Part shown: in pieces, positions 1,364 through 18,952 of the stretch
Layout: every line of letters starts with the position of its first letter
Position numbering within the stretch: the stretch's first letter is position 1
DNA from: a bacterium
GTDB lineage: Bacteria; NPL-UPA2; JAUVJM01
Direction of reading: 5' to 3'
Assembly (NCBI GenBank): GCA_030606215.1
Contig: JAUWGW010000006.1
Coordinates: 1 to 64,000, forward strand
Length of the DNA stretch: 64,000 bases
Notes under the pieces: model-generated
The model's database searches: none
What the model was told of the DNA's origin: nothing
The model's input: the letters and a program-made list of their open reading frames with translations, nothing else
Position numbers and translations under genes: made by a program

Positions 1364-1392
1364 TTGACAGGGATGGATGGAGGTGATAGTAT
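1364..1392 (+). promoter_or_regulatory. Promoter of the ROK/MttB operon
   Basis: TTGACA (1364-1369), a 17-base spacer and TAGTAT (1387-1392). It is the only strong promoter I see before the long + strand run that continues to 18505. Confidence 0.6.
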
Positions 1393-1419
1393 AACAATGG
1401 ACGTGTTGTTAAAACTTAA

Positions 1420-1435
1420 TTCACTCAATGAGTAA
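1420..1435. promoter_or_regulatory. Operator candidate overlapping the ROK start
   Basis: TTCACTCAATGAGTAA has a perfect ACTCA-n-TGAGT core (1423-1433). It lies between the -10 box and the ATG at 1439, a natural place for autorepression by the ROK protein. A sister site is at 218-232. Confidence 0.5.
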
Positions 1436-1438
1436 ATT

Positions 1439-2683
1439 ATGTTTACATTGAACAACAGCAAAACTGCAAATAGAGAGTTGATGCGGGAGATGAACACAAA
1501 ACTGGTTCTAAACCTTCTTAAAGAGCAGGGTTTAATCTCCCAGGTAAATATCAGAAACAAGACGGGCTTAAGCTCTGGCACAGTTGTTAGTATAGTCAGG
1601 GAGTTAAAAGAGCAGGGTTTTATTAAGGAAGTTGGTTCTGGCGAATCCAGTGGAGGGAGAAAACCTACTGTACTTAGCTTCAATTCAGAAGCTTTCTATA
1701 TAGCTTCTGTAACATTCTTTGCTGATGAGACAACTGTGGCTGTGCTGGACCTATCAGGGAACATTAAGAAAAAGGTAAAATTTTCCACTGAGATTGAGAA
1801 AGGGAAAGAAGCATTATTTAAGAAGTTTGCCAGGCGTTTTGATTCTTTACTGAGCAAACTTCACATTGATAGAAGCAAAGTTTTAGGAGTAGGTGTCAGT
1901 TTTGAAGGTATAGTTGACTACAATAAAGGTGCGCTGATTTTATCTTCTCGATTTGGTTGGCGGGATGTTCCGGTTAATGAAATGATAGAAGATGAATGTG
2001 GGCTCAAGGCTTTCGTTGAGGGTGATGGTCGGGCAATGGCATTAGGGGAGTACTGGTATGGTGTGGGGAAAGGTACACATGAGATGATATGTATAGACAT
2101 TGATTCCGGGATTGGCGCCGCTATGATTTCTGGAGGAAATCTTTGTCATGGAATACATAGTATGGAGGGTGAGATTGGCCATAATTTGATGGTGGTAGAT
2201 GGACCAAGGTGCAGATGCGGCAGGAGAGGATGTCTTGAGGCAATTGCTTCAGGCTGGGCTATTCTTTCCCGTGTTAGGGAGGAGTTAAGGCAAGGTAGAG
2301 AATCTAAGATTTCAAAATTAGTCAACTCCCCACCAGAACATAAGGCAATCAGGTATGTCTTTCAAGCAGCAAGAGAAGGGGACAAATTTGCTCTTCAGGT
2401 TATTAATGAAGCAGGTCATTTCTTAGGGCTGGCAATAGCTAATGCGATAAATTATGCTGATCCGGGATTAGTTGTTCTTGCAGGTTATGTAACATATAAG
2501 AGTAGAGGAATGCTTCTACCCATCATCAGGGAAACTGTTAAGGAACATACGGTTAATGGCAGGTTAAGGACAATCAGGATAGAAGAAGGAAGCCTGGGGG
2601 AAAACAGCGCACTTATTGGGGCGGCAACGCTTGTTTATCAAGGTGTATTTGGTATAACTTCATCGTCCTGCATTTCACCTTAG
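1439..2683 (+). CDS. ROK-family transcriptional regulator
   Basis: This 414-residue sugar-responsive repressor has the NagC/XylR architecture. An N-terminal winged helix-turn-helix (about residues 15-75) reads LVLNLLKEQGLISQ, then NKTGLSSGTVVSIVREL and GGRKPTVLSF. The ROK sugar-kinase-like fold follows, with ICIDIDSGIGAAMISGG, GEIGHNLM and the zinc-binding CRCGRRGCLE near residue 257. It probably senses a sugar or sugar phosphate. It heads the catabolic operon, with only 23 bases before the next gene, and a palindrome sits over its own start, so autoregulation together with the operon is likely. The ligand cannot be read from sequence. Confidence 0.9.
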   Translation: MFTLNNSKTANRELMREMNTKLVLNLLKEQGLISQVNIRNKTGLSSGTVVSIVRELKEQGFIKEVGSGESSGGRKPTVLSFNSEAFYIASVTFFADETTVAVLDLSGNIKKKVKFSTEIEKGKEALFKKFARRFDSLLSKLHIDRSKVLGVGVSFEGIVDYNKGALILSSRFGWRDVPVNEMIEDECGLKAFVEGDGRAMALGEYWYGVGKGTHEMICIDIDSGIGAAMISGGNLCHGIHSMEGEIGHNLMVVDGPRCRCGRRGCLEAIASGWAILSRVREELRQGRESKISKLVNSPPEHKAIRYVFQAAREGDKFALQVINEAGHFLGLAIANAINYADPGLVVLAGYVTYKSRGMLLPIIRETVKEHTVNGRLRTIRIEEGSLGENSALIGAATLVYQGVFGITSSSCISP

Positions 2684-2706
2684 CTCTAGCTGCAGGGGAT
2701 ACACTC

Positions 2707-4170
2707 ATGTTATCCGTAGAAGACAGAGAGATACTCAGAGAAAAAGTTTATGCACTTCTTGAGGATGTTGGTATGAAAGTTGAGAATGAGGAAGTTTGCT
2801 CTTTCTTGCTTAAGAACGGTTGTTTTGAGACTCCCTCTAAAAGAATAAGAATACCCAAGAAGTTAATAGATGGAATGGCAATTTCACAGAAAAAAACTCA
2901 AAGTGAGGATGATAAAGACCAGGAGCTAATCTTTCCCTGTGGAGTGGATTGGGCGCATTCCATAATCTGGAATAAGAAACAAGATGATATGAGAGATGTA
3001 TTAAAAAAGAGATTTTTAATGTCTGCTTTTGATTGCGGTCCCACTAAATACTATGATTACAAAAAGAAGGAAAGTATTCCGGTGGATACGGAAATATTTA
3101 TTGAAATGAAGAAGTTTGCTCAGGCTACTCCTGAGATAGGTTATATCAGCACGTGGTACAGGCAGGGTGTCCCTGCGAAAATAGAAAGATTGGATTCTTT
3201 GATTCTTGGGCTTAAGCATACAGACAAGTTAGATGGTATTGAAGCTATATATCCAGAGGTAATAAAGTATTTAAAGGAGGCAAGTGAAATAATAACTGGT
3301 AGAGATGGTGATTCAAGTTATTTAGCCGGTTCGGAATGTATTACTTCTCCTCTTGTATTGGAGAGAAGGTCTGCTGAGGACATATTAGAAAGGAAGAAGA
3401 GAGGAATAAACAGGTACCATGTTGCTTCCATGCCTACCATAGGAGTATCCACTCCGGTTACCGTAGCGGGAGCTATTGTAATGTCAGCAGCAGAAATCTT
3501 AGGTGGTATGGCTATCTGTTTCCTTCTTGACCCCAAATCAGACCTCTCCGGCAGGATGATTTCAATGGTTACTGATATGAAGACGGGGAATTCTCTCAGT
3601 AGTGGACCGGAGGTAAGTCTGGTTAATATAGGGGTGAAAGAACTGTTTGATGCTTTCTGGGGAGGGCATCTCTGGGTTGAGGTATTTTTCAGTCCTTCAG
3701 CAAAAGAGCCAGGTTTAATGACAGTATATGAAAACCTTTATGGAGCTTATCGCTATTCTAAGCTAACCAGGAACCCGGATATTCCCTACCCGGGAATGGG
3801 AACTTTAGGCGATGGAGGAATAGGTTCTCCAACTCAATTTATTCTGGATATGGAGATAAGGAAATCTGAGTTTGCTCTCAAAGACAGTATAGATGTTGAT
3901 GAAGAAACCCTCCCTTTCGTCGATATTTGTAAAATGACTGAGGAAAGAAAAGAATTCTTAAGCAGTGAACATACCTTGAAACATTTCCGGGAACTCTGGT
4001 CATCAGACATACTTAATTTTAAAGGAGATGGAAAAAATATTCTAAATAGATGTGATGAGGTGTGGAGAGAGAATGTCAAAAAATGGGAACCTCCTGAATG
4101 GCCGGAGGATAAAATCAAAGCCCTGAACAATTTATTGGAAAGGGCAAAAGAGGAGCTTTTAAATGCCTGA
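2707..4170 (+). CDS. MttB-family (trimethylamine methyltransferase-like) protein, copy 1
   Basis: This 487-residue protein belongs to the MttB superfamily, whose members move a methyl group from a quaternary or tertiary amine to a corrinoid protein. Recognisable parts are the N-terminal LEDVGMKVENEEV helix and the core segment PTIGVSTPVTVAGAIV followed by AAEILGG, which is shared with the second copy at 8570. There is no in-frame TAG, so it is of the non-pyrrolysine type (as in glycine betaine demethylases), and its substrate is unknown. No MttC-like corrinoid protein is in the window. It overlaps the following Gfo/Idh-like gene by 8 bases, suggesting translational coupling and joint action. 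The start ATG at 2707 follows a GGGGA box. Confidence 0.8.
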   Translation: MLSVEDREILREKVYALLEDVGMKVENEEVCSFLLKNGCFETPSKRIRIPKKLIDGMAISQKKTQSEDDKDQELIFPCGVDWAHSIIWNKKQDDMRDVLKKRFLMSAFDCGPTKYYDYKKKESIPVDTEIFIEMKKFAQATPEIGYISTWYRQGVPAKIERLDSLILGLKHTDKLDGIEAIYPEVIKYLKEASEIITGRDGDSSYLAGSECITSPLVLERRSAEDILERKKRGINRYHVASMPTIGVSTPVTVAGAIVMSAAEILGGMAICFLLDPKSDLSGRMISMVTDMKTGNSLSSGPEVSLVNIGVKELFDAFWGGHLWVEVFFSPSAKEPGLMTVYENLYGAYRYSKLTRNPDIPYPGMGTLGDGGIGSPTQFILDMEIRKSEFALKDSIDVDEETLPFVDICKMTEERKEFLSSEHTLKHFRELWSSDILNFKGDGKNILNRCDEVWRENVKKWEPPEWPEDKIKALNNLLERAKEELLNA

Positions 4171-5218
4171 GAAGATTCGGCTTGGTTTAGTTCGGTGTGA
4201 CACACACAGCTATTATTTTGGCGCAATGCTTAACAAATGCGACCCTCTGCTCTTACAGAAAAATAATTATGTTGTTCATCACTATCTCACCAATATATAT
4301 AACCCGAAGCGCTTAACTATGCCAAAGGTCACAGGGTTCAGATTGGTCAAGGTGTACGACTATAATCCAGAGGAGGCAAAAAAGTTTTCTGAAACCTTCC
4401 TGAGTAAGCCTCAAATATGCGAGACCTTAGAGAAAATGACAGAGGGTATTGATGCAGTCTTCATCGCTGACTGTGATGGAGGAGGTGGAGACCATTTAAA
4501 GTTGGCGACCCCTTTCTTGAAGAAAGGCATCCCCGCTTTTGTTGATAAACCATTCGCATCAACTTTAAGAGATGCAAAAGCAGTTGTTGCATTGGGGAAG
4601 AAATATAATGCTCCAATTTTCAATTCTTCAATTCTAAGTGTTGTTCCTGCTGCAGACCAATTCAAAAATAGGATTAATGAAATTGTCAGAGCATATTGGC
4701 CCGTTCCCTCTTCACTCCCTCCTGCAGGGAGTATTTTGGGTGTGGTGAAGGGTGTTGGAGGTGCCTTTTCCCAGGAACTTAAAGGTAAAGCGATTACTGG
4801 CGGGTTAGAAGAGCGGTTAGCCTATGTCATTCATGGTATTGCGCTCGGGCTAAACCTTTTTGGAAGAAGTGTGGAATGGGTGGAGTGTATGGGGACCCTT
4901 CCCCTTGAATATCTGCATATGCATCTTAAGAGCGGAGTTGAAATCTTGGTAATGAATACTTCCATAGATTTCTTTCCGGAATCTTGCTCCTTCTATGCCG
5001 CGGCATATAGTAAATTTGGCACTATCCACTCTCAACCTATAGGTGACCCCGAATTCATTGGAGGAGGTGCGAAGATTCTGCGGCTCTTCAAGAAGATGAT
5101 TTTAACAGGAAAACCACCTGTTCCATATGAGGACATCCTTGAACACATTGCTGTTGTAGAAGCCGGTCAATTAGCACAGAAGACGGGGAAGCGGGTTTAT
5201 CTAAAAGATATCACGTAG
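4163..5218 (+). CDS. Gfo/Idh/MocA-like oxidoreductase, copy 1
   Basis: This 351-residue protein resembles Gfo/Idh/MocA dehydrogenases: an N-terminal nucleotide-fold half, a sheet with DAVFIADCDGGGGDHL, then [12 protein letters not shown], matching the family's EKP motif with the lysine kept. The usual glycine-rich GxGxxG turn is replaced by GLVRCDTHSYYFGAM, a signature shared with copy 2 at 10053 ([15 protein letters not shown]). It may therefore bind NAD(P) atypically, or have another role. It overlaps the upstream MttB gene by 8 bases, with AGAGGAGC as ribosome-binding site. The pairing with MttB is repeated downstream, so the two proteins probably act on the same or successive intermediates. 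Confidence 0.75.
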   Translation: MPEKIRLGLVRCDTHSYYFGAMLNKCDPLLLQKNNYVVHHYLTNIYNPKRLTMPKVTGFRLVKVYDYNPEEAKKFSETFLSKPQICETLEKMTEGIDAVFIADCDGGGGDHLKLATPFLKKGIPAFVDKPFASTLRDAKAVVALGKKYNAPIFNSSILSVVPAADQFKNRINEIVRAYWPVPSSLPPAGSILGVVKGVGGAFSQELKGKAITGGLEERLAYVIHGIALGLNLFGRSVEWVECMGTLPLEYLHMHLKSGVEILVMNTSIDFFPESCSFYAAAYSKFGTIHSQPIGDPEFIGGGAKILRLFKKMILTGKPPVPYEDILEHIAVVEAGQLAQKTGKRVYLKDIT

Positions 5219-5227
5219 GGAAGACAT

Positions 5228-6187
5228 ATGCTTAATAAAATTAATATGTTAAGGTCGATGTATCGGATACGTTTCTTTGAAGAGAAAGCAAAGAAACTTT
5301 ATAAAGAGGGTATGATGGCTGGCGATTCCTTAGGAGCGCTTCATTCCTATATTGGTGAGGAAGCCATAGCAGTTGGTGCTTGCGCTACACTTAAAAAAGG
5401 TGACTATGTATTAAGCACTCATAGAGGTCATGGTCACTGTATTGCTAAAGGTGGTAACATAAAGAGGATTATGGCTGAACTTCAAGGGAAAGAAACAGGT
5501 TACTCCCGAGGGAGAGGCGGTTCAATGCACCTTTTTGCTCCTGAGATAGGATTCATGGGTGGGAATGGGATTGTAGGAGGTGGTATTCCAATTGCAGTTG
5601 GCACGTCTTACTCAGCCAGCTACAGAGAGACAGATCAGGTTACAATATGTTTCTTTGGTGATGGAGCTGCAACTCAAGGGACATTCCACGAATCCTTAAA
5701 CATAGCTTCGCTATGGAAGTTACCGGTTATATTCGTCTGTGAAAACAATCTTTACGCTGTTACTACCCCTGTGTCAGAGACGATATCTATACCAAATATT
5801 GGAGATAGAGCATGTGCTTATGGTATGCCAGGGAAGGTCGTAGATGGTAACGATGTTTTGCAGGTTTATGAAACTGTCTTAGAAGCTGTAAATAGAGCAC
5901 GAGCTAAAGAATGGCCAACATTAATTGAATGCAGGACATATCGCTGGGACCCTCATTGTTTTGTTATCCCTGAAACGAGGGGAGGAGATGAGATAAAAGA
6001 TTGGAAGACCAAGGACCCAATTGCCCGCTTTGAGAAGATTCTTTTAGATGAAGGCGCTATAACAGGAGAGCAAGTGGGAAAGATAAGGTCAGAGATTATT
6101 AAAGAGATAGATGAGGCAGAGGAATTTGCCAGAAATAGCCCGTATCCAGATGTTGTGGAATTCAAAAGAGAGGTAGATGTTTACTGA
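5228..6187 (+). CDS. TPP-dependent 2-oxoacid (pyruvate/acetoin-type) dehydrogenase E1, alpha subunit
   Basis: This 319-residue alpha chain has the usual length for the alpha2-beta2 E1 family. The thiamine-diphosphate motif runs from GDGAATQGTFHESLN (about residue 143) to ENN about 28 residues later. STHRGHGHCIAKG and GRGGSMHLF are other family landmarks. E1 decarboxylates a 2-oxoacid or acetoin and passes the acyl group to a lipoyl E2. No E2 or E3 gene is present in this cluster, so it must share E2/E3 from elsewhere or work with another acceptor. It follows the Gfo gene by 9 bases and is separated from E1 beta by a dispersed repeat. Confidence 0.9.
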   Translation: MLNKINMLRSMYRIRFFEEKAKKLYKEGMMAGDSLGALHSYIGEEAIAVGACATLKKGDYVLSTHRGHGHCIAKGGNIKRIMAELQGKETGYSRGRGGSMHLFAPEIGFMGGNGIVGGGIPIAVGTSYSASYRETDQVTICFFGDGAATQGTFHESLNIASLWKLPVIFVCENNLYAVTTPVSETISIPNIGDRACAYGMPGKVVDGNDVLQVYETVLEAVNRARAKEWPTLIECRTYRWDPHCFVIPETRGGDEIKDWKTKDPIARFEKILLDEGAITGEQVGKIRSEIIKEIDEAEEFARNSPYPDVVEFKREVDVY

Positions 6188-6193
6188 ACCCCG

Positions 6194-6232
6194 TGTCATT
6201 CTGACCCTGAGTGAAGCGAAGGGGAAGAATCT
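6194..6232 (+). repeat. Dispersed intergenic repeat of the GTCATTCTGA...AAGAATCT type
   Basis: TGTCATTCTGA and AAGAATCT flank a GAGTGAAGCGAAGGGG core. I recognise this as a short palindromic element common between genes in many bacterial genomes (family knowledge, not searched). It is inserted between the two E1 subunit genes and reaches the first possible ATG of the beta subunit (6233). Confidence 0.6.
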
Positions 6233-6244
6233 ATGGAAGGCAGC

Positions 6245-7237
6245 ATGCGAGAAATAAGGTATGTTGATGCTTTAAATGAAGCACTATGTGAAGAAATGGA
6301 GAGAGATAAAAATGTCTTTCTCATTGGAGAAGATATAGGTCCCTTAGGAGGAGGTTTTGGAGTAAGCAAAGGGCTCTTTGATAAGTTTGGTGAGAAGAGA
6401 GTGAGACAAACACCAATCTCAGAGTCAGCCATCATAGGAACGGCAGTTGGAACCGCAATGACAGGTTTGAAGCCAATTGCTGAGATAATGTATATAGATT
6501 TTATCACCTGCGGGATGGATCAGGTAATAAATCAGGCGGCAAAACTTTCTTTCATGTCCGGAGGCGGTATAAAAATTCCTCTGGTTATCAGGACACAACA
6601 GGGAATTGGAACGAGGGAAGCCGCCCAGCATAGCCAGAACTTAGAAGCCTGGTTTGTCCACACTCCAGGTCTTAAGGTTGTGATGCCTGCAACTCCCTAT
6701 GATGCGAAAGGATTGCTCAAAGCAAGTATCAGGGATGATTCGCCTGTAGTCTTTATTGAGAATAGACTCCTGTATTTCAAGAAAGATACTGTGCCTGAAG
6801 GTGAGTGGTTAGTTCCCTTAGGAGAAGCTGAAATTAAAAGAGAAGGGAATGATATTACTGTAATTGCTACTTCTCTTATGGTACATAAGGCATTGGAAAC
6901 CGCAGCTACTCTTTCGCCGGAAATAAGTGTAGAGGTAATTGATTTAAAAACTTTGGTGCCACTTGATATAAAGAGAATAATTGAGTCAGTGAAGAAAACA
7001 GGCAAAATTTTGGTTCTTCATGAGGCACCTACAAGAGGAGGAGTAGGGGCAGAGATATTAAGAGAAGTAATGAAGGAAGCATTTAGGTATTTAGTTACTC
7101 CACCAAGAGTTCTTGGAGGTTTAAATACACCTATTCCCTTCTCTCCTCCTCTGGAGGACGTTTGTGTACCCCAGACAAAAGATATTGTCAAAATGGTGAG
7201 AGAGATTATAAAGGAGAAATGGAATGAGCGAAATTGA
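6245..7237 (+). CDS. TPP-dependent 2-oxoacid dehydrogenase E1, beta subunit
   Basis: This 330-residue transketolase-type beta chain partners the alpha subunit upstream. Family landmarks are REIRYVDALNEAL, VFLIGEDIGPLGGGFGV, RVRQTPISESAIIGTAVG, PLVIRTQQGIGTREAAQHSQ and the C-terminal transketolase domain with VEVIDLKTLVPLD. The start was set at ATG 6245 (MREIRYVDAL) because GGAAGG (6235-6240) precedes it; the ATG at 6233 belongs to the edge of an inserted repeat. The gene overlaps the next aminotransferase by 14 bases, so the E1 and aminotransferase are likely translated together. Confidence 0.88.
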   Translation: MREIRYVDALNEALCEEMERDKNVFLIGEDIGPLGGGFGVSKGLFDKFGEKRVRQTPISESAIIGTAVGTAMTGLKPIAEIMYIDFITCGMDQVINQAAKLSFMSGGGIKIPLVIRTQQGIGTREAAQHSQNLEAWFVHTPGLKVVMPATPYDAKGLLKASIRDDSPVVFIENRLLYFKKDTVPEGEWLVPLGEAEIKREGNDITVIATSLMVHKALETAATLSPEISVEVIDLKTLVPLDIKRIIESVKKTGKILVLHEAPTRGGVGAEILREVMKEAFRYLVTPPRVLGGLNTPIPFSPPLEDVCVPQTKDIVKMVREIIKEKWNERN

Positions 7238-8573
7238 AGATTTAAAAAAAGATGCTCTGGCTTACATTTGCCCGCATTTTGCATCTAACACAGAACTTTC
7301 TAAAGGACCAAAGATATTTGTCAAAGGAGAAGGCTGTTACGTTTATGATATAGAAGGAAACTGCTATCTGGATACCTTTGCATCTCTTCTCACCACAATA
7401 TGCGGTCATAATCGCTCTGAGATAGCGAAGGTGGTTCAGGAACAAATGAAGCAGTTAGAGTTTTTCCCAAATTATGTGGATACTTTCACCGTGCCGCTTA
7501 TAAAGTTGGCAAAGAAATTAGCTGAGATTACTCCAGGAGACCTTTCGGTCTCCTTCTTTGTTAACAGCGGTTCTGAAGCCTGTGAGACTGCCATAAAGAT
7601 GGCAAGACAGTACCACTTAGAAAAAGGAGAACGTTCAAGATATAAGATTATTGCAAGGAGATATTCTTATCATGGGACAACCCTGGGTGGCGTATCAGCC
7701 ACTGGGATACCATGGTTCAGGGAATATTTCGAGCCTCTACTTCCTGGATTTATCCATGTAATTGCTCCACATTGTTTCAGGATGGGACTTGAGCCAGATG
7801 AATGTAAAGAAATCTGCTTAAAGGCAATGGAGGAGACAATTCTCTGGGAGGGGCCTGAGTCAGTTGCGGCAGTTATCCTTGACCCTATTCCTGGTTCAAA
7901 TATGGGTTATCCACTTCCTCCTGATGGGTATCTTCAGGGCATAAGAAAGATATGTAATAAATATGGGATTTTGCTTATTTTTGATGAAGTGCAGACTGGT
8001 TTTGGTAAGACAGGAAAAATGTTTGCTTGTGAACACTGGGATGTGACACCGGACATTATGGCTATTGGTAAAGGGTTTACTGGTGGATATATACCTCTGG
8101 CTGCAACCATAACCACACCCGGGATATATGAAGTATTCAAGAAACCCGGTTCTGAATTCCGCAGCGGCAGCACATATGGAGGGCATACGACTGCATGTGC
8201 TGCTACTCTTACTAATATAGATATAATTGAGAAGGAAAATCTTGTAGAAAAAGCGGCGGAGATGGGAAAGTATTTAAAAAGTAAATTGGAGGAACTATAT
8301 AAGTACAGAATAGTTGCAGATTTTCGTGGTATAGGGATGCTCTGGGCAATAGAACTGATGGCGGATAGAGAAAAGAGAAAGCCGCTTGATACAAAGCTCA
8401 ATGTAGGCAGCTGGATAAGAGAATGGTGCTGGAAGAATAAGATGATTCTCAGGAATAATGCCGATATTCTCGTTATTGCACCTGCGCTTGTGATGACAAA
8501 AGACCAGATAGATGAAATGCTTGGCAAAATTGACCAGGCTATAGGAGAAGCAATTAAACAATTCAATCTGTGA
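7224..8573 (+). CDS. Class III (omega-type) PLP aminotransferase
   Basis: This 449-residue aminotransferase has the class III fold. DEVQTGFGKTGKMFACEHW lies at about residues 254-272, and the PLP lysine is in AIGKGFTGGY at about residue 282. FFVNSGSEACETAIKMAR is the cofactor phosphate region. Relatives use 2-aminobutyrate, beta-amino acids, taurine or ornithine as donors; the substrate here is unknown. The gene starts inside the end of E1 beta (14-base overlap) with AAGGAG at 7211-7216, and its stop overlaps the second MttB start. That position suggests it delivers the oxoacid used by E1 or removes nitrogen from a demethylated amine. Confidence 0.88.
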   Translation: MSEIEDLKKDALAYICPHFASNTELSKGPKIFVKGEGCYVYDIEGNCYLDTFASLLTTICGHNRSEIAKVVQEQMKQLEFFPNYVDTFTVPLIKLAKKLAEITPGDLSVSFFVNSGSEACETAIKMARQYHLEKGERSRYKIIARRYSYHGTTLGGVSATGIPWFREYFEPLLPGFIHVIAPHCFRMGLEPDECKEICLKAMEETILWEGPESVAAVILDPIPGSNMGYPLPPDGYLQGIRKICNKYGILLIFDEVQTGFGKTGKMFACEHWDVTPDIMAIGKGFTGGYIPLAATITTPGIYEVFKKPGSEFRSGSTYGGHTTACAATLTNIDIIEKENLVEKAAEMGKYLKSKLEELYKYRIVADFRGIGMLWAIELMADREKRKPLDTKLNVGSWIREWCWKNKMILRNNADILVIAPALVMTKDQIDEMLGKIDQAIGEAIKQFNL

Positions 8574-10033
8574 TGACAATGGCACTCAACTATGCTTATC
8601 CTACTTATAAAATGGATATAACGAGTGAAATACTTGATGAATGCTGTGATATTGCTGTGAGATTATTGAAAGAAGTTGGCATGGAGGTAGGGCATGAAAG
8701 ATTCCTGGATACAATAAAAAGGAGAAGTGGAATAAAAATTGAAGGGAAGAAGGTTCGTTTTGAAGAAGCCCTCGTGCGAAAAAATTTAGAGAGATGCATT
8801 GCTGAGAGTAAAGAGGTGTTGAAGCAGAAAGAAGAAGGGCGAGATAACAAGTGGAGGCTGATGTCAAATGGATATTCTATGTGTGTTATTGATATTGAAA
8901 CTGATGAAATCAGGCCTGCGACCTGTCAGGATTTAAGAGACCTGATTAAACTGAAGGATTCTTTTGGAATAGTTGGGTCCTACCCGGTTATGCCACAAGA
9001 CCTTCCTCCTTTAATGAGAGCTATCGCTTGTTTTAAAATCTGCTGTGAGGCAAGTGACAAAACCAGGCCATATGATTACCAGAATATAAAACAAACAAGA
9101 TACATATACGAAATGTGTAAAGTAATGGGGAAAAGTTTTGAGATAGTATTAAATATCTCACGAACAATGGCGATAGACAGGAATGACATGGATGTTTTCT
9201 TTGATTTTTATCCTGATTGGAAAAAGGGTGGTGATATATCTCTGACAGCTAATAGTTACCCCATGCTTGGAATAAATAAGCCTATCACTGCAACAGGGTG
9301 TATTGCATTACACATGGCTGAGATGCTTGGAGTACAGGTTTTGTTTAACTTATTTGACCCGGAAATAAAATTAGCGTTTAAGGTTCGAGCTGGGTATCCT
9401 ACTGATATGAGACACACATGCTGGGCATTTGGTTCTCCCAAAGCTCATCTTTATGCATACTTGAATTCCAGGATTTTTCCCAACCTATGCAAATGTGATA
9501 ATGGAAATTATACGCCTGACACTGTTCGGTTAGAAACAAGCTCAAGCGCAGTGGATGAACAGGCTGCTCTGGAAAAAATAGGGGTGGCAATGGTGGCGGC
9601 TCTTCAAGGATGCAAAAGTTTCTCATATGCTGGAAATCTCTGTGTGGATGACCTTTTTAGCGGTGTGCAGTTTGTAATAGATGTGGAGATATTTAATTAT
9701 ATCAAGGAAACGATAGAATCTTTCGATCCCCATCCGGACATTTTCAGTATGGACGGGTTATATGAAATGCTGAGGGATGTAAGCATAGGAAAGGAGCAGT
9801 TCCTATCCCATCCGGACACAGCCGCAAAGTTAAGGAATATTCTACCGTCATCGGAGCGGATTCATCGTGAGAAACTGAGCTCATGGTTTGAGCATAGAAA
9901 GACACTCAAAGATAGGGCAAGGGAAGAATGTATAGAAAGGATAAAAAATTTCCCTGAGTATCATTTGCCTGAGGATAAGCAGAAAGAGCTGGATGCGATA
10001 TACAAGAGAGCAAACGCTGACCTTGTGAAATAA
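8570..10033 (+). CDS. MttB-family methyltransferase-like protein, copy 2
   Basis: This 487-residue paralogue of the protein at 2707 has exactly the same length but considerable divergence. The shared core reads YPMLGINKPITATGCIAL followed by MAEMLGV, against PTIGVSTPVTVAGAIV in copy 1. There is no in-frame amber codon. It begins at an ATGA overlap with the aminotransferase stop. ATG 8579 (MALNYAYPTY) is an alternative start. Like copy 1, it is followed directly by a Gfo/Idh-like gene. The two copies may handle different methylated substrates or successive demethylations. Confidence 0.8.
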   Translation: MMTMALNYAYPTYKMDITSEILDECCDIAVRLLKEVGMEVGHERFLDTIKRRSGIKIEGKKVRFEEALVRKNLERCIAESKEVLKQKEEGRDNKWRLMSNGYSMCVIDIETDEIRPATCQDLRDLIKLKDSFGIVGSYPVMPQDLPPLMRAIACFKICCEASDKTRPYDYQNIKQTRYIYEMCKVMGKSFEIVLNISRTMAIDRNDMDVFFDFYPDWKKGGDISLTANSYPMLGINKPITATGCIALHMAEMLGVQVLFNLFDPEIKLAFKVRAGYPTDMRHTCWAFGSPKAHLYAYLNSRIFPNLCKCDNGNYTPDTVRLETSSSAVDEQAALEKIGVAMVAALQGCKSFSYAGNLCVDDLFSGVQFVIDVEIFNYIKETIESFDPHPDIFSMDGLYEMLRDVSIGKEQFLSHPDTAAKLRNILPSSERIHREKLSSWFEHRKTLKDRAREECIERIKNFPEYHLPEDKQKELDAIYKRANADLVK

Positions 10034-10052
10034 AAATTGGGAGGGGTTGGGG

Positions 10053-11084: not shown

Positions 11085-11101
11085 GAAAGGGGGAATCAGG
11101 A

Positions 11102-11734
11102 ATGTTAAAGAGGATGACTGACAAATTGCATGGTTTTACCCTCATAGAGTTACTTGTCGTAGTTGCCATAATTGCTGTCCTGGCGGCAATGCTTTTGCCA
11201 GCATTAAGCCAGGCAAGGGAGAAAGCAAGGCAGGCAAAATGCATCAGTAATTTGAGACAACTTGGCACTATACTTATTATGTATAGCATTGATCGTGGGG
11301 GATGGATGGTACCCTGGTACGATGGTAGTAAAACCTGGACTAAGATATTAGACGATGAAAATTATGTTAGTAATACCTCTATTTACCTTTGTCCTTCCTA
11401 TCCTCCCACGGAACACTCTTCACCTGTATACGCTTATGGGTATAATACAAAGGATCCGACAAAAGCTGATTTGGGTATAGGGGAAACTTATCGACTGGAT
11501 ACCGTGAGTTCTTCCAGCTCATACTTTATCCTGGCAGATAGTATAGAGATAGCCGTGAAAAAACAAACCTACTATATACCTAGTGGAAATACTAGGGAAA
11601 TACATTGTCGGCACAACGGAATGGCAGATTTACTTTATGCAGATGGTCATGTAGAAATTGAGAGTCCTGAGGAAATAGATGCCGCCGATAATGGATACTA
11701 CTTGGCTTGGGGCCACATATATGTGGGAGAGTAA
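11102..11734 (+). CDS. Type II secretion-like pseudopilin, H-X9-DG type
   Basis: This 210-residue prepilin has the methylation/cleavage motif [20 protein letters not shown] near residue 12, a single N-terminal hydrophobic helix, and [20 protein letters not shown] after it. The C-terminal part has [15 protein letters not shown], the H-X9-DG motif typical of PVC-group pseudopilins. These proteins form short pili or secretion pseudopili, or bind surface polysaccharide. It is placed between the enzyme genes and a large secreted glycosidase-like protein, fitting a role in substrate capture. ATG 11102 follows AAGGGGGAATCAGGA. Confidence 0.9.
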
Positions 11735-11829
11735 AATTTAACATCGGACAGAGTGAAATTTAGCACTTAGTGTGGAATATTTCTGAAAAGGGGCAAAAAC
11801 ATGGAAATGAAAGTAAAGGAGGGTTTGTC

Positions 11830-14580
11830 GTGCTTATAAAATCTGTATTGTTTGTTTGGTTAGCTCTTTGTTTTTCTTCTTTGGGTATCGCTGAAGAACA
11901 GGGGCTGGTAGCCTATTACGATTTTAACGAAGGCTCGGAGCTAATAGCACATGATAGGAGTGGAAATAAGAATGATGGGAAGATAATAGGAGCTACCTGG
12001 GTAAAGGGTAGATATGGCACTGCTTTAGAGTTTGATGGGATAAATGACTATGTTGACTGCGGGGAGAAACCAAGTTTTGATGTTAAAAATGTAGTTACCC
12101 TTGAGGCTTGGGTTTTACCTACGAAGGCCCCTTCTGGAGAACCAGCAATAGTAGGCAAAAAAATCTCCAGATATGCATTGACCTATTACAAAAATGGGAA
12201 CTGTTACTTCTATATATCTGCTGGTGTTAATCATTGTGTAGCTCGCCACCTTGCCGTTGGTGTTTGGCATCACATTGTAGCAACATTTGATGGAACAACA
12301 ATGAATCTGTACGTTGATGGAGATTTAAAGGACACTCGCACCTCACTTTACAAAACGATAGATAGTCGTGGTGGAAATCTTTTTATTGGCAAGCGGGATA
12401 ACGATTATTTCTGCGGCATAATTGACGAAGTTAGAATATATAATCGTACTTTATCCGAAGAAGAAATTCAAACCCATTATCAGTCAGATGCAAGAATGAA
12501 AAAAGCTGTAGTAAATAATAAAACCGGAACAGATACCATGACAAAATTCAGATATAGTCCTGATCAGAGAAGTGAACCCCTTCCACCCTGGCCGCCTGTA
12601 GAAGTGAGGAAGAGAAAAGTTATTGTATGGGGAAGAGAATACACCTTTTCTAATCTCCCTATCCCGGTCTCTATTATTTCTCAGGGGCAAGAGTTATTAG
12701 CTAGTTCTCCAAAGCTTGAAGTTCTGGTAGAGGGAAAACCGCTGGTATGGCAGCCAGTGCGAATTGAAAGAATTTCACCTGCGGTTGCCAAAGTAATTTC
12801 TCAGGGGAAAGCAGGAGACTTTCTAATTCAAGGAGAGAGCTTCGTTGAATTCGATGGGCTGGTCTGGGTTCAACTAAGGCTCAGTTGTACCCAGGAAAAG
12901 TTAGTCTCTATCAAAAATTTGAGCCTCAAAATTCCTCTGAAATCACCCCCAGTTCAGCTTTTTTCCCATCAGCTCGTTAGGACAGCTAATTTTCAAAGCT
13001 CGTTTCAGTTATTGACTACTCCAGAACAGTTCTATTACACTGGCGCATTGCCTCATGAAGGTTGGAAAGGAGAATTTACCCCACAGGTCTGGGTAGGAAA
13101 TGTCGATCGGGGACTGGCATGGATTAGTGAATCTCCACATTCATGGGAAATCGGTCATAAAGAAGCCGTATTGGAACTGATCCCAGACAGCAAAAAAGTG
13201 TGGCTGAACGTGACATTTGTATCAATTCCCATTAGATTGGAAAAGGAAAGGAATATAGAATTCGGACTAATGGCGACCCCTGTGAAACCTTGGCCAACTG
13301 ATAGATCTCTTTTGCGGGTATCCCATACTGGTGGGGGGGCTTTTGAAAAGCTCCGGGATACCTACATTATTCCGCGAAAGGAAGATGGAAAGACCGGACT
13401 TGACGACTTTGCCAAGGAGGGGGTTCGTACGCTCGTCCTGTGGGACTACTACTCGGATGTCTGGGGGTTTCCAAAGATTGTCAGCTCTAAGAATAGAGAG
13501 TTTGCTAAGGCATTTGTACAGAAGGCACATAAGCTGGGTATTCGTGTCATGCCATATCAGGCTACGTTGCAGATCCTGCCCGAAAGACATCCTGAATTTG
13601 AGGAACTCAAAAAGCGGTTTCAAGTTTATCCTCAGTGTGAAGAGAAGGGATATCACAAAGTTAAGCTAACAGATGACTTTATAATGTGGTATGCATCGCA
13701 AGCGGCAGCACATATGCGTGAATTTGACCTGGACGGTTACTACTTGGATACCTTTAATGACCCAGACCGTTTTAACCACAGTGATGTCGTAATGTATGAT
13801 ATACTGCAAACCCGAAAATTATACAAAGCCTTATATGAGATAGTTTACAAGGAAAAGGGTAAGCATGGCATTATTTTCCTTCATGATTCTGCACCGCCTC
13901 TATTTCCCCTGGCAAGTTTTTCTGACCTCCGCCTAACAGGTGAAATGCAATACTGGAGATTGGCTTTCCAGCACCTGACAAGAAGTAGCAATCCTTTGCT
14001 GCAGGCTATTCCACTTGAACAGATTCAGGTATGGGATATGGGGGAGGTTGTAGGGGTGCCAACGGTTTGGTGCTGGAAGCATCCCGACAAAGAGTATAGG
14101 GTGAGAACCGGGTTGGATTTGCTAACATATAAGACTGGGGAGTTATTCGATACGGAGGAAGTGTTTAGCATTATGGGACTTTTTCACATACCAATTTTTG
14201 CTCGACCTCTCTGGTGGCGATCCCCCAGCCCAGTGCCGAGAATGTCTCAGATATGGAAGCTGGAGGATGAATTTGGATTGCAGAATGCCAGATGGTACCC
14301 CTATTGGGAAAACGCAGGTCTCATTTCTGTCTCTCCCCCAGAAGTAAAAGTAAGCTTCTATCTCAAAGAAGACTGTTCATTACTAATGCATGTTGCTAAT
14401 CTGGGAGAGAAGGAGAACATAACTCAGATTAAATTTACTAGCTCCTCCGGCCTGAAGAGCAAACGGTTTGAGATAATAAATGCTGTGGGAAGTTATCATG
14501 TTAGAGGAAGATTGGGGGGAGTGGAATTGAGATTACCTCCAGGTCAATCCACACTCTTGATGCTTCGGGTGAAGAAATAA
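11830..14580 (+). CDS. Secreted LamG-domain, glycoside-hydrolase-like protein
   Basis: This 916-residue protein was started at GTG 11830, because AAAGGAGGG (11815-11823) lies six bases before it and a signal peptide follows (LIKSVLFVWLALCFSSLGIA). Residues of about 25-215 form a concanavalin/LamG domain (GLVAYYDFNEGS, ALEFDGINDYVDCG, WHHIVATFDGTTMNLYVDG, IDEVRIYNRTLSEEEI). The rest looks like a TIM-barrel glycosidase of the DUF6067 kind, with VRTLVLWDYYSDVWG, HKLGIRVMPYQATLQ and LDGYYLDTFNDPDRF. The acidic residues in the last motif are candidate catalytic groups. It probably attacks an extracellular glycan feeding this operon; the family assignment is moderately sure and the substrate unknown. 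Confidence 0.7.
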   Translation: MLIKSVLFVWLALCFSSLGIAEEQGLVAYYDFNEGSELIAHDRSGNKNDGKIIGATWVKGRYGTALEFDGINDYVDCGEKPSFDVKNVVTLEAWVLPTKAPSGEPAIVGKKISRYALTYYKNGNCYFYISAGVNHCVARHLAVGVWHHIVATFDGTTMNLYVDGDLKDTRTSLYKTIDSRGGNLFIGKRDNDYFCGIIDEVRIYNRTLSEEEIQTHYQSDARMKKAVVNNKTGTDTMTKFRYSPDQRSEPLPPWPPVEVRKRKVIVWGREYTFSNLPIPVSIISQGQELLASSPKLEVLVEGKPLVWQPVRIERISPAVAKVISQGKAGDFLIQGESFVEFDGLVWVQLRLSCTQEKLVSIKNLSLKIPLKSPPVQLFSHQLVRTANFQSSFQLLTTPEQFYYTGALPHEGWKGEFTPQVWVGNVDRGLAWISESPHSWEIGHKEAVLELIPDSKKVWLNVTFVSIPIRLEKERNIEFGLMATPVKPWPTDRSLLRVSHTGGGAFEKLRDTYIIPRKEDGKTGLDDFAKEGVRTLVLWDYYSDVWGFPKIVSSKNREFAKAFVQKAHKLGIRVMPYQATLQILPERHPEFEELKKRFQVYPQCEEKGYHKVKLTDDFIMWYASQAAAHMREFDLDGYYLDTFNDPDRFNHSDVVMYDILQTRKLYKALYEIVYKEKGKHGIIFLHDSAPPLFPLASFSDLRLTGEMQYWRLAFQHLTRSSNPLLQAIPLEQIQVWDMGEVVGVPTVWCWKHPDKEYRVRTGLDLLTYKTGELFDTEEVFSIMGLFHIPIFARPLWWRSPSPVPRMSQIWKLEDEFGLQNARWYPYWENAGLISVSPPEVKVSFYLKEDCSLLMHVANLGEKENITQIKFTSSSGLKSKRFEIINAVGSYHVRGRLGGVELRLPPGQSTLLMLRVKK

Positions 14581-14599
14581 GATCGTTAAAAATGATCGG

Positions 14600-15916
14600 A
14601 TGATGTTAAAGAAGAAGTTTGCAGACATCAAATCACAGTCCTATTTTGACAGTGCCATTAGAACTCTATTCATAATACTGACAGCAAGCTCCATTTTTCT
14701 TTCTGGTTGTGGGAGGAAAGAGGAAGGCAAGGTCAGGTTAAAATATGCCATTTTCTCAACTCCGAAGTACATTCAGCTCGAGAAAGAACTGATTAAGGAT
14801 TTTGAGAGTAAAAACCCTGACATAAAAGTAGAGTTGAGGACAGCGGGGTACGGGCTCCATCATGAAAAAATCCAGGTTGAGATAGTAGCCGGTATGGCTC
14901 CCGACCTCTGGCTTACTGATGGAGTTTATATCATGGAGTGGGCTGAACGCGGTGTCATAGAAGAACTGACAGAACTTTTTAATTCCAAGATGAAATCAGA
15001 AGAATATTTCGGGCTGCAGGCATTAAGAGATCCGGAAGGTAGATTGTGGGGTATTCCAAAAGAAATCCAAACCTTCGGATTATTCTATAATAAGGACATT
15101 TTTGACCGTTTCGGAGTCCAGTATCCGGACGATTCCTGGACATGGGATGAGGTTGTATGTGCCGCCAAATCGCTCACCAAGGATACAGATGGTGATGGAA
15201 GGGTAGATATTTATGGATTTGGACAGGGAGTAGTTACTCTTATTTCAAACCTGATTTATCAATACGGTGGGTCCATACTGGATGAGAAACGCAGAAACTC
15301 GCTTCTCAATACACTTCCTGCACGACAAGCCATTGAATTTGGTCTCTCATTGTGTAAGCAAAAAGTCATGCCAACCCTTGCAGACAAGAGTACATTCAGC
15401 GAGCTAGAGATGTTTCGAATGGGAAAACTTGCCATGTGCATAGGAAATTATGCTTATGTAAATGAAATAGAGACGACTTTCAATTACTCAGTGGCCTTAC
15501 CTCCAAAGAAGGTGAATCGCCGGTGCTACTATGACCCAAATGCTCTTGTCATAAGCCGGGGAAAATCCCAGGTTGTGAAGGATGCCGCCTGGAGGTATAT
15601 TGAATATCACTCCAGTTTGGAGGCGCAGATTAAACTCGGGAGGAGAGGAGAAGGACTGCCTTTTAACCGGAGAGCCGCCCTCTCAGTAGTAGATACTGAG
15701 GAAGCGAGGAAGCATAACCTCAAAGTATTTTATGATATGGTTGATGAGTCAGTTGACTATGATGTGAATGGATGCTGGAGGAAATGGAGAAGAGATGCAT
15801 TTCAAAAAGAAATTGAAAAGGGGGCATTGGGAATAGTTCCTATAGAGGAGGTGCCAGATAACGCCCACAGGGAAGTGCAAAAGGTCCTTGATGCGTATTA
15901 TGGAAGTGATTCATGA
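14600..15916 (+). CDS. Extracellular solute-binding lipoprotein (ABC sugar type)
   Basis: This 438-residue protein has a lipobox LSGC with cysteine at about residue 37, then a family 1 solute-binding fold: AIFSTPKYIQLEKELIKDFE, then PDIKVELRTAGY, APDLWLTDGVYIMEWAERG, GIPKEIQTFGLFYNKDIF and KSLTKDTDGDGRVDIYGFG. It would capture an oligosaccharide at the outer face of the inner membrane. No permease or ATPase genes are adjacent, so it is an orphan that must use transport components coded elsewhere. It ends with an ATGA overlap into the DUF3604 gene. Confidence 0.88.
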   Translation: MMLKKKFADIKSQSYFDSAIRTLFIILTASSIFLSGCGRKEEGKVRLKYAIFSTPKYIQLEKELIKDFESKNPDIKVELRTAGYGLHHEKIQVEIVAGMAPDLWLTDGVYIMEWAERGVIEELTELFNSKMKSEEYFGLQALRDPEGRLWGIPKEIQTFGLFYNKDIFDRFGVQYPDDSWTWDEVVCAAKSLTKDTDGDGRVDIYGFGQGVVTLISNLIYQYGGSILDEKRRNSLLNTLPARQAIEFGLSLCKQKVMPTLADKSTFSELEMFRMGKLAMCIGNYAYVNEIETTFNYSVALPPKKVNRRCYYDPNALVISRGKSQVVKDAAWRYIEYHSSLEAQIKLGRRGEGLPFNRRAALSVVDTEEARKHNLKVFYDMVDESVDYDVNGCWRKWRRDAFQKEIEKGALGIVPIEEVPDNAHREVQKVLDAYYGSDS

Positions 15917-17451
15917 ACGAATACAAGTTATATTGGGGTGATTTACATACACATCTTGAGGATTTCGACAACAGCGATGCAATCCTTCGTGATGCCCAAG
16001 AGAACATCGACTTTTGTGCCGTGCTCTGCTACCCATTTGCCTGGGAAAGAAAACGCGGATTGCTAGTTGAAAGTGTCAGGCAACGGCCGGAATTTCTTCA
16101 ATGGTGGGAAAAACTCCGGGAGTTGGCTCGCACGCACCATCACCCCGGCCGCTTTGTCACCTTTCTGGGTTATGAATGGCATGGAAATCGAACACATTAT
16201 GGTGACCACAATGTGATCTATTTTGATGAAAATAATCCATTGGATGATGCATGGGCGTTAGAGGATCTGTACAGAAATCTACAGAAGCGCAGGGCAATTG
16301 CCATCCCTCACCACACGGGTTATTGTCGGGGATGGCGCGGTAAGAACTGGGATGTTTTTGACGAAAAGTTATCCCCTGTGATGGAGGTATTCTCTATACA
16401 TGGCTCATCCGAAGGTTGCAACACACCGTTTCCCCTGGAGCAGAATAGTAGCATGGGGCCCCGGACCACAGGCGGTACGCTTCACGATGCCCTCGCGCGG
16501 GGTTATCAGGTTGGTGTTATTGGATCAAACGATGGTTCTGGACTTCCAGGTCGGTGGGGGATTGGACGGGCAGGTGTTTGGGCACGCGAGTGCACACGAG
16601 AAGCCATCTGGGAGGCATTGCTGGCGCGCCGCACATATGCTACGACCGGAGATCGAATTAAGCTTGATTTTCAAATAAATGGTGCACCTATGGGATCAGT
16701 AATACAAAGAGATAGTTCAATAGATGCCGATGTAATCATTGAAGGCTCTCACGCCATTGACCGAGTAGAGTTATTGCAAAATGGATACGTTATTGATACA
16801 TACTGCCACAGTGGTTGCTGGGAAGACCAAGTACAAAAATCCGGACGGTTCAAGGTTTTTATAGAAGCTGGCTGGGGACCTGCGGCACACTATGGATATC
16901 AGCCGATGAATTGGAAGTGGTCGTGTCGTCTTGATGTTGAATTGGGTCGTTTAGTGAGTGTGGAGAGATGCTTTTCGCTTTTAGGTCAGAGAGTTAAGTC
17001 ACATAGTGAGAGCCACTGTACTTGGGAGCTGACTACGGCAGGTCGTACAATCCGTAACAACCCCTTTGGAATGTGCCAGGGGATTGTCTTTGAGCTGGAG
17101 GGCGACCTCAAGACACGGCTTCGTTTGCAGATGGAGGGGGTGACACTCGAGCTGTCAGTCGGGGATCTCATAAGAGGATCCCATGTGGTTCCGCTCGTGG
17201 AAGAATCAAAACGCAGGGTGCAGGAGACCTTCGGCCTGGAGGAAAAGGAGTTGGGTAACTGTGATACATACTACTCCAATGCCCGAAAAATTAAACTGCA
17301 CAAGGCAATTCCGGAGAGAGGTTACCGGGTCGCTCACACGTTTCGCAATCTCAATCTGACTAAGGGTCGCAATTACTTCTATGTAAGAGTGTCGCAGCTC
17401 AATGGGCAGTTGGCATGGTCATCGCCGATTTGGATGGACTCTAAGTCATGA
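15913..17451 (+). CDS. DUF3604/PHP-like metal-dependent hydrolase
   Basis: This 512-residue protein begins with YWGDLHTHLE, the metal-binding HxH of the PHP/DUF3604 group. Further candidate metal ligands are in GYEWHGNRTHYGDHNVIYF, AIPHHTGYCRG, EVFSIHGSSE and GVIGSNDGSG. The C-terminal third is an all-beta region. DUF3604 proteins have no firmly assigned reaction. The start overlaps the preceding stop (ATGA). The middle of the gene is visibly richer in G+C and in CGC/GCC codons than its neighbours, which could mean separate acquisition. Confidence 0.8.
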   Translation: MNEYKLYWGDLHTHLEDFDNSDAILRDAQENIDFCAVLCYPFAWERKRGLLVESVRQRPEFLQWWEKLRELARTHHHPGRFVTFLGYEWHGNRTHYGDHNVIYFDENNPLDDAWALEDLYRNLQKRRAIAIPHHTGYCRGWRGKNWDVFDEKLSPVMEVFSIHGSSEGCNTPFPLEQNSSMGPRTTGGTLHDALARGYQVGVIGSNDGSGLPGRWGIGRAGVWARECTREAIWEALLARRTYATTGDRIKLDFQINGAPMGSVIQRDSSIDADVIIEGSHAIDRVELLQNGYVIDTYCHSGCWEDQVQKSGRFKVFIEAGWGPAAHYGYQPMNWKWSCRLDVELGRLVSVERCFSLLGQRVKSHSESHCTWELTTAGRTIRNNPFGMCQGIVFELEGDLKTRLRLQMEGVTLELSVGDLIRGSHVVPLVEESKRRVQETFGLEEKELGNCDTYYSNARKIKLHKAIPERGYRVAHTFRNLNLTKGRNYFYVRVSQLNGQLAWSSPIWMDSKS

Positions 17452-17452
17452 A

Positions 17453-18505
17453 ATGAAACAGGCAGAGGTCAAAAAAGCTTGGTTAACTGCAGGTAATCGA
17501 GCACGTGTCATAGCCACATTGAGTCATAAGAAATCAGACAAGGTGCCTTATAATGTAAGTTTTACCCGAAAGGCACGTGCTAAGATGATTGAATCTTATG
17601 GAGATCCTGATTTCGAATCAAAATTGGGAAATTGTCTGACAGTGATGCGTTGTGAGCCCAAAGATAGTTGGAAAGAGGTAAACCCCAATATTTGGGAGGA
17701 CCAATTCAGAGTCCAGTGGAATCGGACCGTAGATAAAGATATAGGTGTGGTTTGTAATTGTTTAGTAACACCGGATAATATCAATGAATATGAATTTCCT
17801 GACCCAGATGATCCGTTAAGATATGATGATTATAACGAGATTATTAAAACAAAGAAAGATGGATTTTTTGTAGTAGCTCTCGGATTTAGCCTATTTGAAA
17901 GAGCTTGGACTCTCACCGGTATGGAGAATTTACTTATGGCGATGATCTCCGATAAGGATTTTGCCAATTCTTTGCTGGATAAGATTTTGGATTTCAATCT
18001 AAGAATAATCGAAAATGCTTGCCTCTTTGATATTGATGCGATGATGTTTGGAGATGATTGGGGGCAGCAGACTGGTCTTATCATGGGCCCAAAACTTTGG
18101 CGGGAATTTATCAAGCCTCGTATCAAACAGATGTATGAGTTAGTAAAATCAAAGGGCAAATTCGTCTTCATCCATTCTTGCGGCAAAGTGGATGAAATAT
18201 TTCCAGATTTGATAGATTGTGGTGTGGATGTATTTAATCCGTTTCAACCTGAGGTAATGAATGTATTTGAGATGAAGAAGAGATATGGTAGTTCACTAAG
18301 TTTCTATGGTGGTATCAGCACCCAGCGGACTTTACCCTATGGGACTGTCACTGAGGTGAAAGACGAAGTCAAGCGACTGCTCGATGTTATCGGGGAAAAT
18401 GGGGGTTACATTGCAGCTCCTGCACACGCTATACCAGCTGATGCAAAGCCCGAAAACATTGCTGCCATGATAGAAGTTTTACAACATCAATTTCCACAAA
18501 TATGA
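17453..18505 (+). CDS. UroD/MtaA-like methyltransferase family protein
   Basis: This 350-residue protein belongs to the uroporphyrinogen-decarboxylase fold that includes corrinoid-to-acceptor methyltransferases. The HSCGKV motif gives the His/Cys zinc site typical of the methyltransferase branch, and the end reads PAHAIPADAKPENI. The start was set at ATG 17453, one base after the previous stop; the ATG at 17402 would overlap DUF3604 by 50 bases. With two MttB-like proteins upstream, a role in passing methyl groups from a corrinoid protein to tetrahydrofolate is plausible but unproven. It is the last gene of the long + strand run. Confidence 0.78.
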   Translation: MKQAEVKKAWLTAGNRARVIATLSHKKSDKVPYNVSFTRKARAKMIESYGDPDFESKLGNCLTVMRCEPKDSWKEVNPNIWEDQFRVQWNRTVDKDIGVVCNCLVTPDNINEYEFPDPDDPLRYDDYNEIIKTKKDGFFVVALGFSLFERAWTLTGMENLLMAMISDKDFANSLLDKILDFNLRIIENACLFDIDAMMFGDDWGQQTGLIMGPKLWREFIKPRIKQMYELVKSKGKFVFIHSCGKVDEIFPDLIDCGVDVFNPFQPEVMNVFEMKKRYGSSLSFYGGISTQRTLPYGTVTEVKDEVKRLLDVIGENGGYIAAPAHAIPADAKPENIAAMIEVLQHQFPQI

Positions 18506-18800: not shown

Positions 18801-18851
18801 CAATCTGTTGGAGGAGCAAATCCGCATTGATTTTTTTCTAACAGGATTTTC

Positions 18852-18881
18852 TTGACGGGGGGTGGGAGTGAGTGATAATAT
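18852..18881 (+). promoter_or_regulatory. Promoter of the nagB-like/deacetylase pair
   Basis: TTGACG (18852-18857), 18-base spacer and TAATAT (18876-18881). The surrounding bases resemble the ROK-operon promoter at 1359-1392 (ATTTTCTTGAC...GTGATA), hinting at common origin or control. It overlaps the GTG at 18872 and so argues for the downstream ATG start. Confidence 0.55.
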
Positions 18882-18952
18882 CAGTTACTGGGGAAGACGG
18901 TCTCTGGAGTCAAAAGGTGGTATTAGCCTGCGTTAATTTGGAGGGAAGAGAC

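Follow-up and report, generated by a model that had tools for sequence, protein, structure and literature searches.

Among described corrinoid-dependent systems, the closest to the one considered here is that of E. limosum, in which a single corrinoid protein, a single activator and a single tetrahydrofolate (THF) methyltransferase, all encoded elsewhere, serve several MttB-family enzymes (PMC8604678). Here we analyzed a gene cluster that joins MttB-type genes to an omega-aminotransferase and the two E1 subunits of a pyruvate-dehydrogenase-like complex. It lies in a stretch of 64,000 nucleotides (contig JAUWGW010000006.1; the window) from the draft genome, 1.52 Mb and 93% complete, of an anaerobic bacterium not yet in culture. 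Thirteen genes, all on the + strand, run from a ROK repressor (starting at 1439) to a UroD-superfamily protein (ending at 18505). Gaps within the run are at most 45 bases, and the next one, before a NagB-like gene, is 366 bases. Open reading frames (ORFs) overlap by exactly 8, 14 and 4 bases, and at two more places by 4 and 50.

An earlier note, made from the sequence alone, had given the genes, their coordinates and the first three overlaps. All were borne out by an ORF check and by Pfam, with matches far over the gathering scores for each gene (e.g. MTTB 79 and 97 versus 25; E1_dh 274; Aminotran_3 344). Every gene it named stood; left unmentioned was a DUF1559 pilin-like gene (11102–11734) between the second Gfo gene and the glycosidase-like gene. 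Its reading of the run as a regulated catabolic operon still to be characterised, in which demethylation and transamination meet a 2-oxoacid-dehydrogenase E1 and which differs from described methylamine or betaine operons, is supported. In the literature on MttB combined with an aminotransferase, E1 or Gfo, of which our coverage was incomplete, we found no account of such a cluster.

A conserved core of four genes

Four genes of the run recur together in other genomes:

2707..4170, + strand: MttB1, an MttB-superfamily methyltransferase of the non-pyrrolysine kind, anchor of the core (PF06253, 79.4 bits; cut-off 25)
5228..6187, + strand: E1alpha of a pyruvate-dehydrogenase-like complex, core (PF00676, 274 bits; TIGR03182, 363 bits, under the cut-off of 393.85)
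6233..7237, + strand: E1beta, core (PF02779/PF02780; NF006667, 374 bits, over the cut-off of 321)
7224..8573, + strand: class III omega-aminotransferase, core (PF00202, 343.9 bits, profile positions 12–403 of 403)

An initial scan with the two Gfo proteins of the run yielded L024 in Ratteibacteria, L025 in Latescibacterota and L026 in the Armatimonadota class Ca. Zipacnadia; those genomes and their phyla were then searched genome-wide for MttB1 orthologues. The best named homologue came from Ca. Ratteibacteria. Orthologues of MttB1, at 47–74% identity, came from 23 genomes, and these span three phyla (window genome/Ca. Ratteibacteria, Latescibacterota and Armatimonadota). Most score 470–830 bits, other MttB paralogues score below 200, and one homologue (in G292) is intermediate at 370. 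Within the window's phylum, MttB1 was absent from the other eight of the nine genomes examined, a pattern that fits horizontal acquisition or loss. Viral contigs that were searched held no MttB1 homologue, and plasmids gave remote matches only (20–24% identity).

For comparison, we set the neighbourhoods of the 22 other MttB1 loci (247 kb) against those of 25 other MttB paralogues from the Armatimonadota searches (353 kb). In 17 of the 22 loci MttB1 has at least one of E1alpha, E1beta and the aminotransferase nearby, their order varying, whereas none of the 25 controls does (Fisher p 9.6e-9, a guide only, since the loci are not independent samples). Taken singly, E1alpha was present in 14, the aminotransferase in 13 and E1beta in 12 of the 22. 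Among the five exceptions, L064 and L065 lie near contig ends, with aminotransferase/Gfo1 or E1beta/Gfo1 on other short contigs (L024, L025), and another sits on a contig of just 3.7 kb; the remaining two, L088 and L089, are without the partners on contigs that are likewise short. The fullest match, L026, holds the four core genes together with Gfo1, Gfo2 and MttB2, in a different order. The earlier note had suggested looking for conservation elsewhere, and the core genes do recur in other phyla. This recurrence places the cluster beyond chance, and the operon is probably a real but uncharacterised pathway for consuming some methylated compound.

The conserved unit is thus MttB1, E1alpha, E1beta and the omega-aminotransferase, and not the two MttB-Gfo modules that the earlier note had seen, which involve three further genes:

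4163..5218, + strand: Gfo1, a Gfo/Idh/MocA-type dehydrogenase (PF01408, 40.8 bits)
8570..10033, + strand: MttB2, a second divergent MttB-superfamily protein (PF06253, 97.2 bits; cut-off 25)
10047..11084, + strand: Gfo2, 52% identical to Gfo1 (PF01408, 52 bits)

MttB1 and Gfo1 adjoin in the window only. Gfo1 instead accompanies the aminotransferase: it directly follows that gene in G009, and in four Armatimonadota loci (L026, L074, L080 and L081) the aminotransferase, a cyclase/lactonase-like hydrolase (PF04199) and Gfo1 stand in sequence. The MttB2-Gfo2 pair was seen in the window and L026 only. The comparative loci therefore rule out the paired modules as the unit under conservation.

Core enzymes and the corrinoid hub

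Neither MttB protein is of the pyrrolysine type. Scores against TIGR02369, the model for pyrrolysine trimethylamine methyltransferase, are 101.6 and 103.6 bits, far under the cut-off of 525; the MttB ORFs contain no in-frame stop, and the MttB1 position matching Pyl334 is Phe328. Tyr364 and Gly372, two M. barkeri MttB residues whose roles have been described (PMC9842639), both have conserved counterparts in the alignment with MttB1. Pfam leaves the N-terminal 110 residues of MttB1 unmatched. A predicted structure of MttB1 reached a predicted local distance difference test score (pLDDT) of 51 on a shallow alignment and was not used. The nearest relative off the MttB1 branch is the intermediate G292 homologue (L085, 42% identity). 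It closes an acetyl-CoA synthase/carbon monoxide dehydrogenase (ACS/CODH) operon (L085:1-10647) with CdhC, corrinoid iron–sulphur protein (CFeSP) subunits, RACo, a methyltransferase and CooC-like ATPases, and this setting supports a corrinoid role for the MttB1 branch. The window genome also encodes a third MttB (G000 contig C17, L095:2554-14607), 26% identical to MttB1, whose neighbours are Gfo dehydrogenases, a protein that looks by eye like GH4, a pilin-like gene and a large LamG/GH123-like protein.

The E1 subunits resemble those of pyruvate dehydrogenase (PDH). E1beta does not pass the equivalog NF008854, and E1alpha falls under the TIGR03182 cut-off, as does, narrowly, the genome's own PDH E1alpha (392.7 bits). 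The operon E1alpha is 54–65% identical to the operon E1alphas of other phyla versus 51% to the PDH E1alpha of its own genome. For the aminotransferase, the closest solved structures are omega-transaminases. Gfo1 has the Rossmann domain and the whole fold of the Gfo/Idh/MocA family, with DKP and His224 both invariant. Its model (pLDDT 81) matches sugar dehydrogenases over the whole length (Z-score ∼31 over ∼295 residues), most closely GenD2 (Z 31) and KanD2 (Z 30), with inositol dehydrogenases similar; this predicted match gives the fold, not the specificity. Elsewhere, a glycyl-radical enzyme (pyruvate formate-lyase-like, with a Gly_radical domain) lies directly 3' of an operon-type E1alpha (L070:16891-19050), and in L071, L073, L076 and L082 the N-terminal protein of a split transketolase is encoded between MttB1 and E1alpha or close to them.

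The earlier note listed a corrinoid protein and E2 among missing partners. This is true of the operon and wrong for the genome, where a search located both on other contigs. Contig C18 encodes one MtgC/MtbC-like corrinoid protein, with the DxHxxG motif as DLHDIG. Contig C13 encodes two RACo/AcsV-type activators, the second of which adjoins a MetF-like reductase and a formate/nitrite transporter. All of these lie together at L135:5225-15345, a grouping that suggests methyl oxidation and formate export. A 270-residue methyl-tetrahydrofolate (methyl-H4folate):corrinoid methyltransferase passes its curated cut-off. The genome thus holds the corrinoid protein, activator and THF methyltransferase of an MtqABC/RamQ-type set, and the absence of a corrinoid gene from the cluster, which had seemed an oddity, matches the E. 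limosum hub (PMC8604678). In view of these hub genes we rejected the absence from the cluster as a mark of a corrinoid-free pathway. In ∼17 related Armatimonadota genomes the RACo and corrinoid protein genes are adjacent; there (e.g. G277:C96, G011:C192, G271:C110) we saw one RACo-corrinoid pair per genome beside a large number of MttB candidates (on first inspection as many as 18), apparently one hub for many enzymes. On contig C9, E2 stands beside its own E1alpha and E1beta, in one PDH E1/E2 set. No E2 or E3 adjoins E1 in the window cluster, and no search aimed at E3 genes was made. E2 is present in 22 of 24 genomes examined, and in the Latescibacterota locus L090 it directly adjoins the operon E1alpha.

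Regulatory region and neighbouring genes

The run opens with a regulator and two candidate sites:

1364..1392, + strand: promoter-like site TTGACA-17-TAGTAT, with TG before the second hexamer (10/12 consensus match)
1417..1439, no strand assigned: imperfect palindrome TAATTCACTCAATGAGTAAATTA, candidate ROK operator (10/11 arm pairs match)
1439..2683, + strand: ROK-family transcriptional repressor, NagC/Mlc-like (PF00480, 184.6 bits, plus helix-turn-helix)

An orthologue of the ROK gene lies immediately 5' of MttB1 in G009, G010 and G302. The promoter-like site is the joint best consensus match in 1000–20900, a region in which such matches as a class are, by total count, not above chance level. 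The half-site ATRAGTAAATWA stands 5' of ROK in four genomes, which belong to two phyla, and at no other place in 212 loci (1.35 Mb), a distribution that is suggestive only, since the pattern was drawn from the same four sites and most loci are G+C-rich.

Downstream of Gfo2 the run continues into a tail, followed by two further genes:

11102..11734, + strand: DUF1559 type IV pilin-like protein, perhaps the first gene of a separate tail (PF07963/PF07596)
11770..14580, + strand: secreted LamG and GH123_N-like protein, tail (PF13385, PF19543)
14600..15916, + strand: ABC-type sugar-binding lipoprotein, tail (PF01547, 93 bits)
15913..17451, + strand: DUF3604 protein, tail (PF12228, 58 bits)
17402..18505, + strand: UroD-superfamily protein, MtaA/CmuA-like, tail (PF01208, 100 bits; TIGR01463, 78.6 bits, under the cut-off of 235)
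18872..19903, + strand: NagB-like glucosamine-6-phosphate deaminase homologue (TIGR00502, 41.7 bits, weak)
19917..20618, + strand: PIG-L/BshB1-like de-N-acetylase (PF02585, 97 bits; TIGR04001, 138 bits, under cut-off)

The earlier note had made glycan release a specific part of the pathway, a claim that is not supported: the GH123-like, UroD, binding-protein and DUF3604 genes show no enrichment around MttB1 over the control MttB paralogues. They are thus probably generic neighbours, and the sugar-like tail is no guide to the substrate of the core. A pilin-like gene is also found 5' of a GH123-like gene at another site in the genome. The UroD protein keeps HxC at 258–260, and has Ala/His at the usual C-terminal Cys zinc-ligand position, unlike S-methyltransferases. 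The NagB-like and PIG-L/BshB1-like pair (18872–20618) is of amino-sugar type and possibly unrelated to the operon. Directly before the operon, at 364–1239, lies a protein of the formylglycine-generating-enzyme (FGE)-sulfatase type with a C-terminal PEP-type sorting tail.

Proposed pathway, alternatives and relation to known systems

The gene identities, core conservation and hub genes given above were obtained by computation; from them we infer every reaction, the order of the steps and the substrate. We give about even chances to a ROK-regulated catabolic operon whose core of MttB1, E1alpha, E1beta and omega-aminotransferase degrades one methylated amine-bearing compound, through the corrinoid hub, to an acyl-CoA. 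MttB1 would pass a methyl group of the substrate to the one MtgC/MtbC-like corrinoid protein that the genome encodes, methylating its Co(I), and the RACo proteins would keep that protein reduced. The methyl-H4folate:corrinoid methyltransferase would move the methyl to H4folate, and the MetF-like enzyme would oxidise it towards formate. The aminotransferase would take off the amino group to leave a carbonyl, and E1alpha/E1beta, with shared E2/E3 encoded outside the operon, would convert this oxo compound by oxidative decarboxylation to an acyl-CoA. In accessory steps, Gfo1 (with the cyclase/lactonase-like hydrolase in relatives) and the MttB2-Gfo2 pair may oxidise or demethylate substrate variants. 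This proposed chain is chemically coherent. A bolder proposal, which we hold only tentatively and consider rather doubtful, is that MttB1 founds a new functional MttB branch, in which hub demethylation, transamination and 2-oxoacid-dehydrogenase oxidation of the skeleton act on a substrate, perhaps sugar-like, without a known MttB enzyme. A methylated amino sugar is possible.

The acyl-CoA pathway draws support from the recurrence of the core beside MttB1, the kinship of operon E1alphas across phyla, the E2 and hub genes, the ACS/CODH setting of the L085 homologue, the kept Tyr364 and Gly372 equivalents and the E. limosum precedent; several observations weigh against it. Described quaternary-amine enzymes remove one methyl, leaving a tertiary amine (PMC8604678, PMC12155760). 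Such a product would be ill suited to a transaminase, and the amine that is transaminated may be a different one in the molecule. Little sequence similarity links MttB1 and MttB2 to characterised members, and genes for a permease, E2, E3 or a corrinoid protein are absent from the window operon. G010 and G011, both metagenome-assembled genomes, lacked E2 in the 24-genome search, and the Latescibacterota loci L088 and L089 (short contigs) carry MttB1 with neither E1 nor aminotransferase. Pairwise distances of MttB1 co-vary with those of E1alpha (r 0.80), E1beta (0.92) and the aminotransferase (0.75), which counts in favour, but this co-divergence owes partly to shared phylogeny. The chance-level count of promoter-like matches belongs here too.

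Unlikely, though the best placed of the alternatives, is a sugar-type pathway in which Gfo1 and the cyclase form a dehydrogenase/lactonase pair, the aminotransferase acts on a keto or aldehyde sugar, E1alpha/beta splits a ketose or hydroxyketone in the manner of AcoAB or transketolase, and MttB1 takes an O- or N-methyl from a methylated amino sugar, as the earlier note had suggested, or amino-cyclitol. The NagC-like ROK, the sugar-binding protein and the nearby NagB- and PIG-L-like genes would fit it, as would the nearest matches of the Gfo1 model, the order aminotransferase-cyclase-Gfo1 in the four Armatimonadota loci, the split transketolase that several loci carry between MttB1 and E1alpha, and the third MttB among Gfo and GH123-like genes. 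Yet the sugar-tail genes are not enriched near MttB1 relative to control loci, fold likeness confers no specificity on Gfo1, and the E1 subunits score as pyruvate-dehydrogenase-like. It is improbable that MttB1 and MttB2 are TIM barrels that have been repurposed and have lost the use of corrinoid, in an operon for non-methylotrophic degradation of an amino compound: hub genes co-occur in nearly all these genomes, a relative of MttB1 sits in an ACS/CODH operon, and corrinoid-contact positions are kept, against which stand the very low similarity to characterised MttBs, the unmatched N-terminus of MttB1 and the lack of a corrinoid gene in the cluster.

E1-like thiamine pyrophosphate (TPP) enzymes and class III aminotransferases are also found in biosynthesis. 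A biosynthetic cluster, in which such a pair makes an amino-ketone and the MttB-like proteins transfer methyl, is nonetheless very improbable given the ROK repressor with its conserved operator-like site, the adjacent binding protein and hydrolases, and the E2 that adjoins E1 in L090. Least probable is a chance juxtaposition of unrelated genes in a small genome. The pilin, DUF3604, UroD and GH123-like neighbours are indeed not specific, but for the core chance is contradicted by the recurrence of four genes over three phyla versus 0 of 25 controls.

The four-gene core, found in three mostly uncultured phyla, offers a specific, testable context for one MttB branch and suggests that what remains after demethylation is consumed as well. 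Such a pathway would give anaerobic bacteria of sediments and groundwater a further means of using methylated organic matter, and would compete for methyl groups otherwise able to feed methanogens.

Compared with known systems, the operon is most like the quaternary-amine:THF systems of E. limosum (MtpB, MtcB and MtyB with MtqC/RamQ/MtqA; PMC8604678), with a non-pyrrolysine MttB-family enzyme encoded apart from shared hub genes. It differs in that MttB1 and MttB2 are remote from solved MttB-family enzymes and in the linkage of MttB1 to an aminotransferase and E1alpha/beta, which suggests that the skeleton is used besides the methyl group. With the glycine betaine methyltransferase MtgB (PDB 2qne, 9yce) the proteins share the PF06253 superfamily and align locally over the barrel, but similarity is weak (E 3e-4 for MttB1, 5e-10 for MttB2). 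Pyrrolysine MttB (PDB 7xcl) belongs to the same superfamily and shares the Tyr364 and Gly372 equivalents with MttB1, but differs in pyrrolysine itself and in its family model. The E1 genes match pyruvate/acetoin dehydrogenase E1 in having alpha and beta subunits of a TPP-binding family, and depart from it in the lack of adjacent E2/E3, the E1alpha score under the PDH equivalog cut-off and the MttB and aminotransferase genes linked to them. Type 1 mlp gene clusters (UroD-type SCMT homologues, PMC10418091) are likewise bacterial corrinoid methyltransferase clusters whose physiology is not established, and a UroD-type protein is present here as well; unlike them, this cluster has no corrinoid protein, and its UroD protein is without the His-Cys-Cys zinc set that S-methyltransferases have. 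Judged by its sequence, the operon probably belongs among the corrinoid-dependent MttB systems, in a new variant form.

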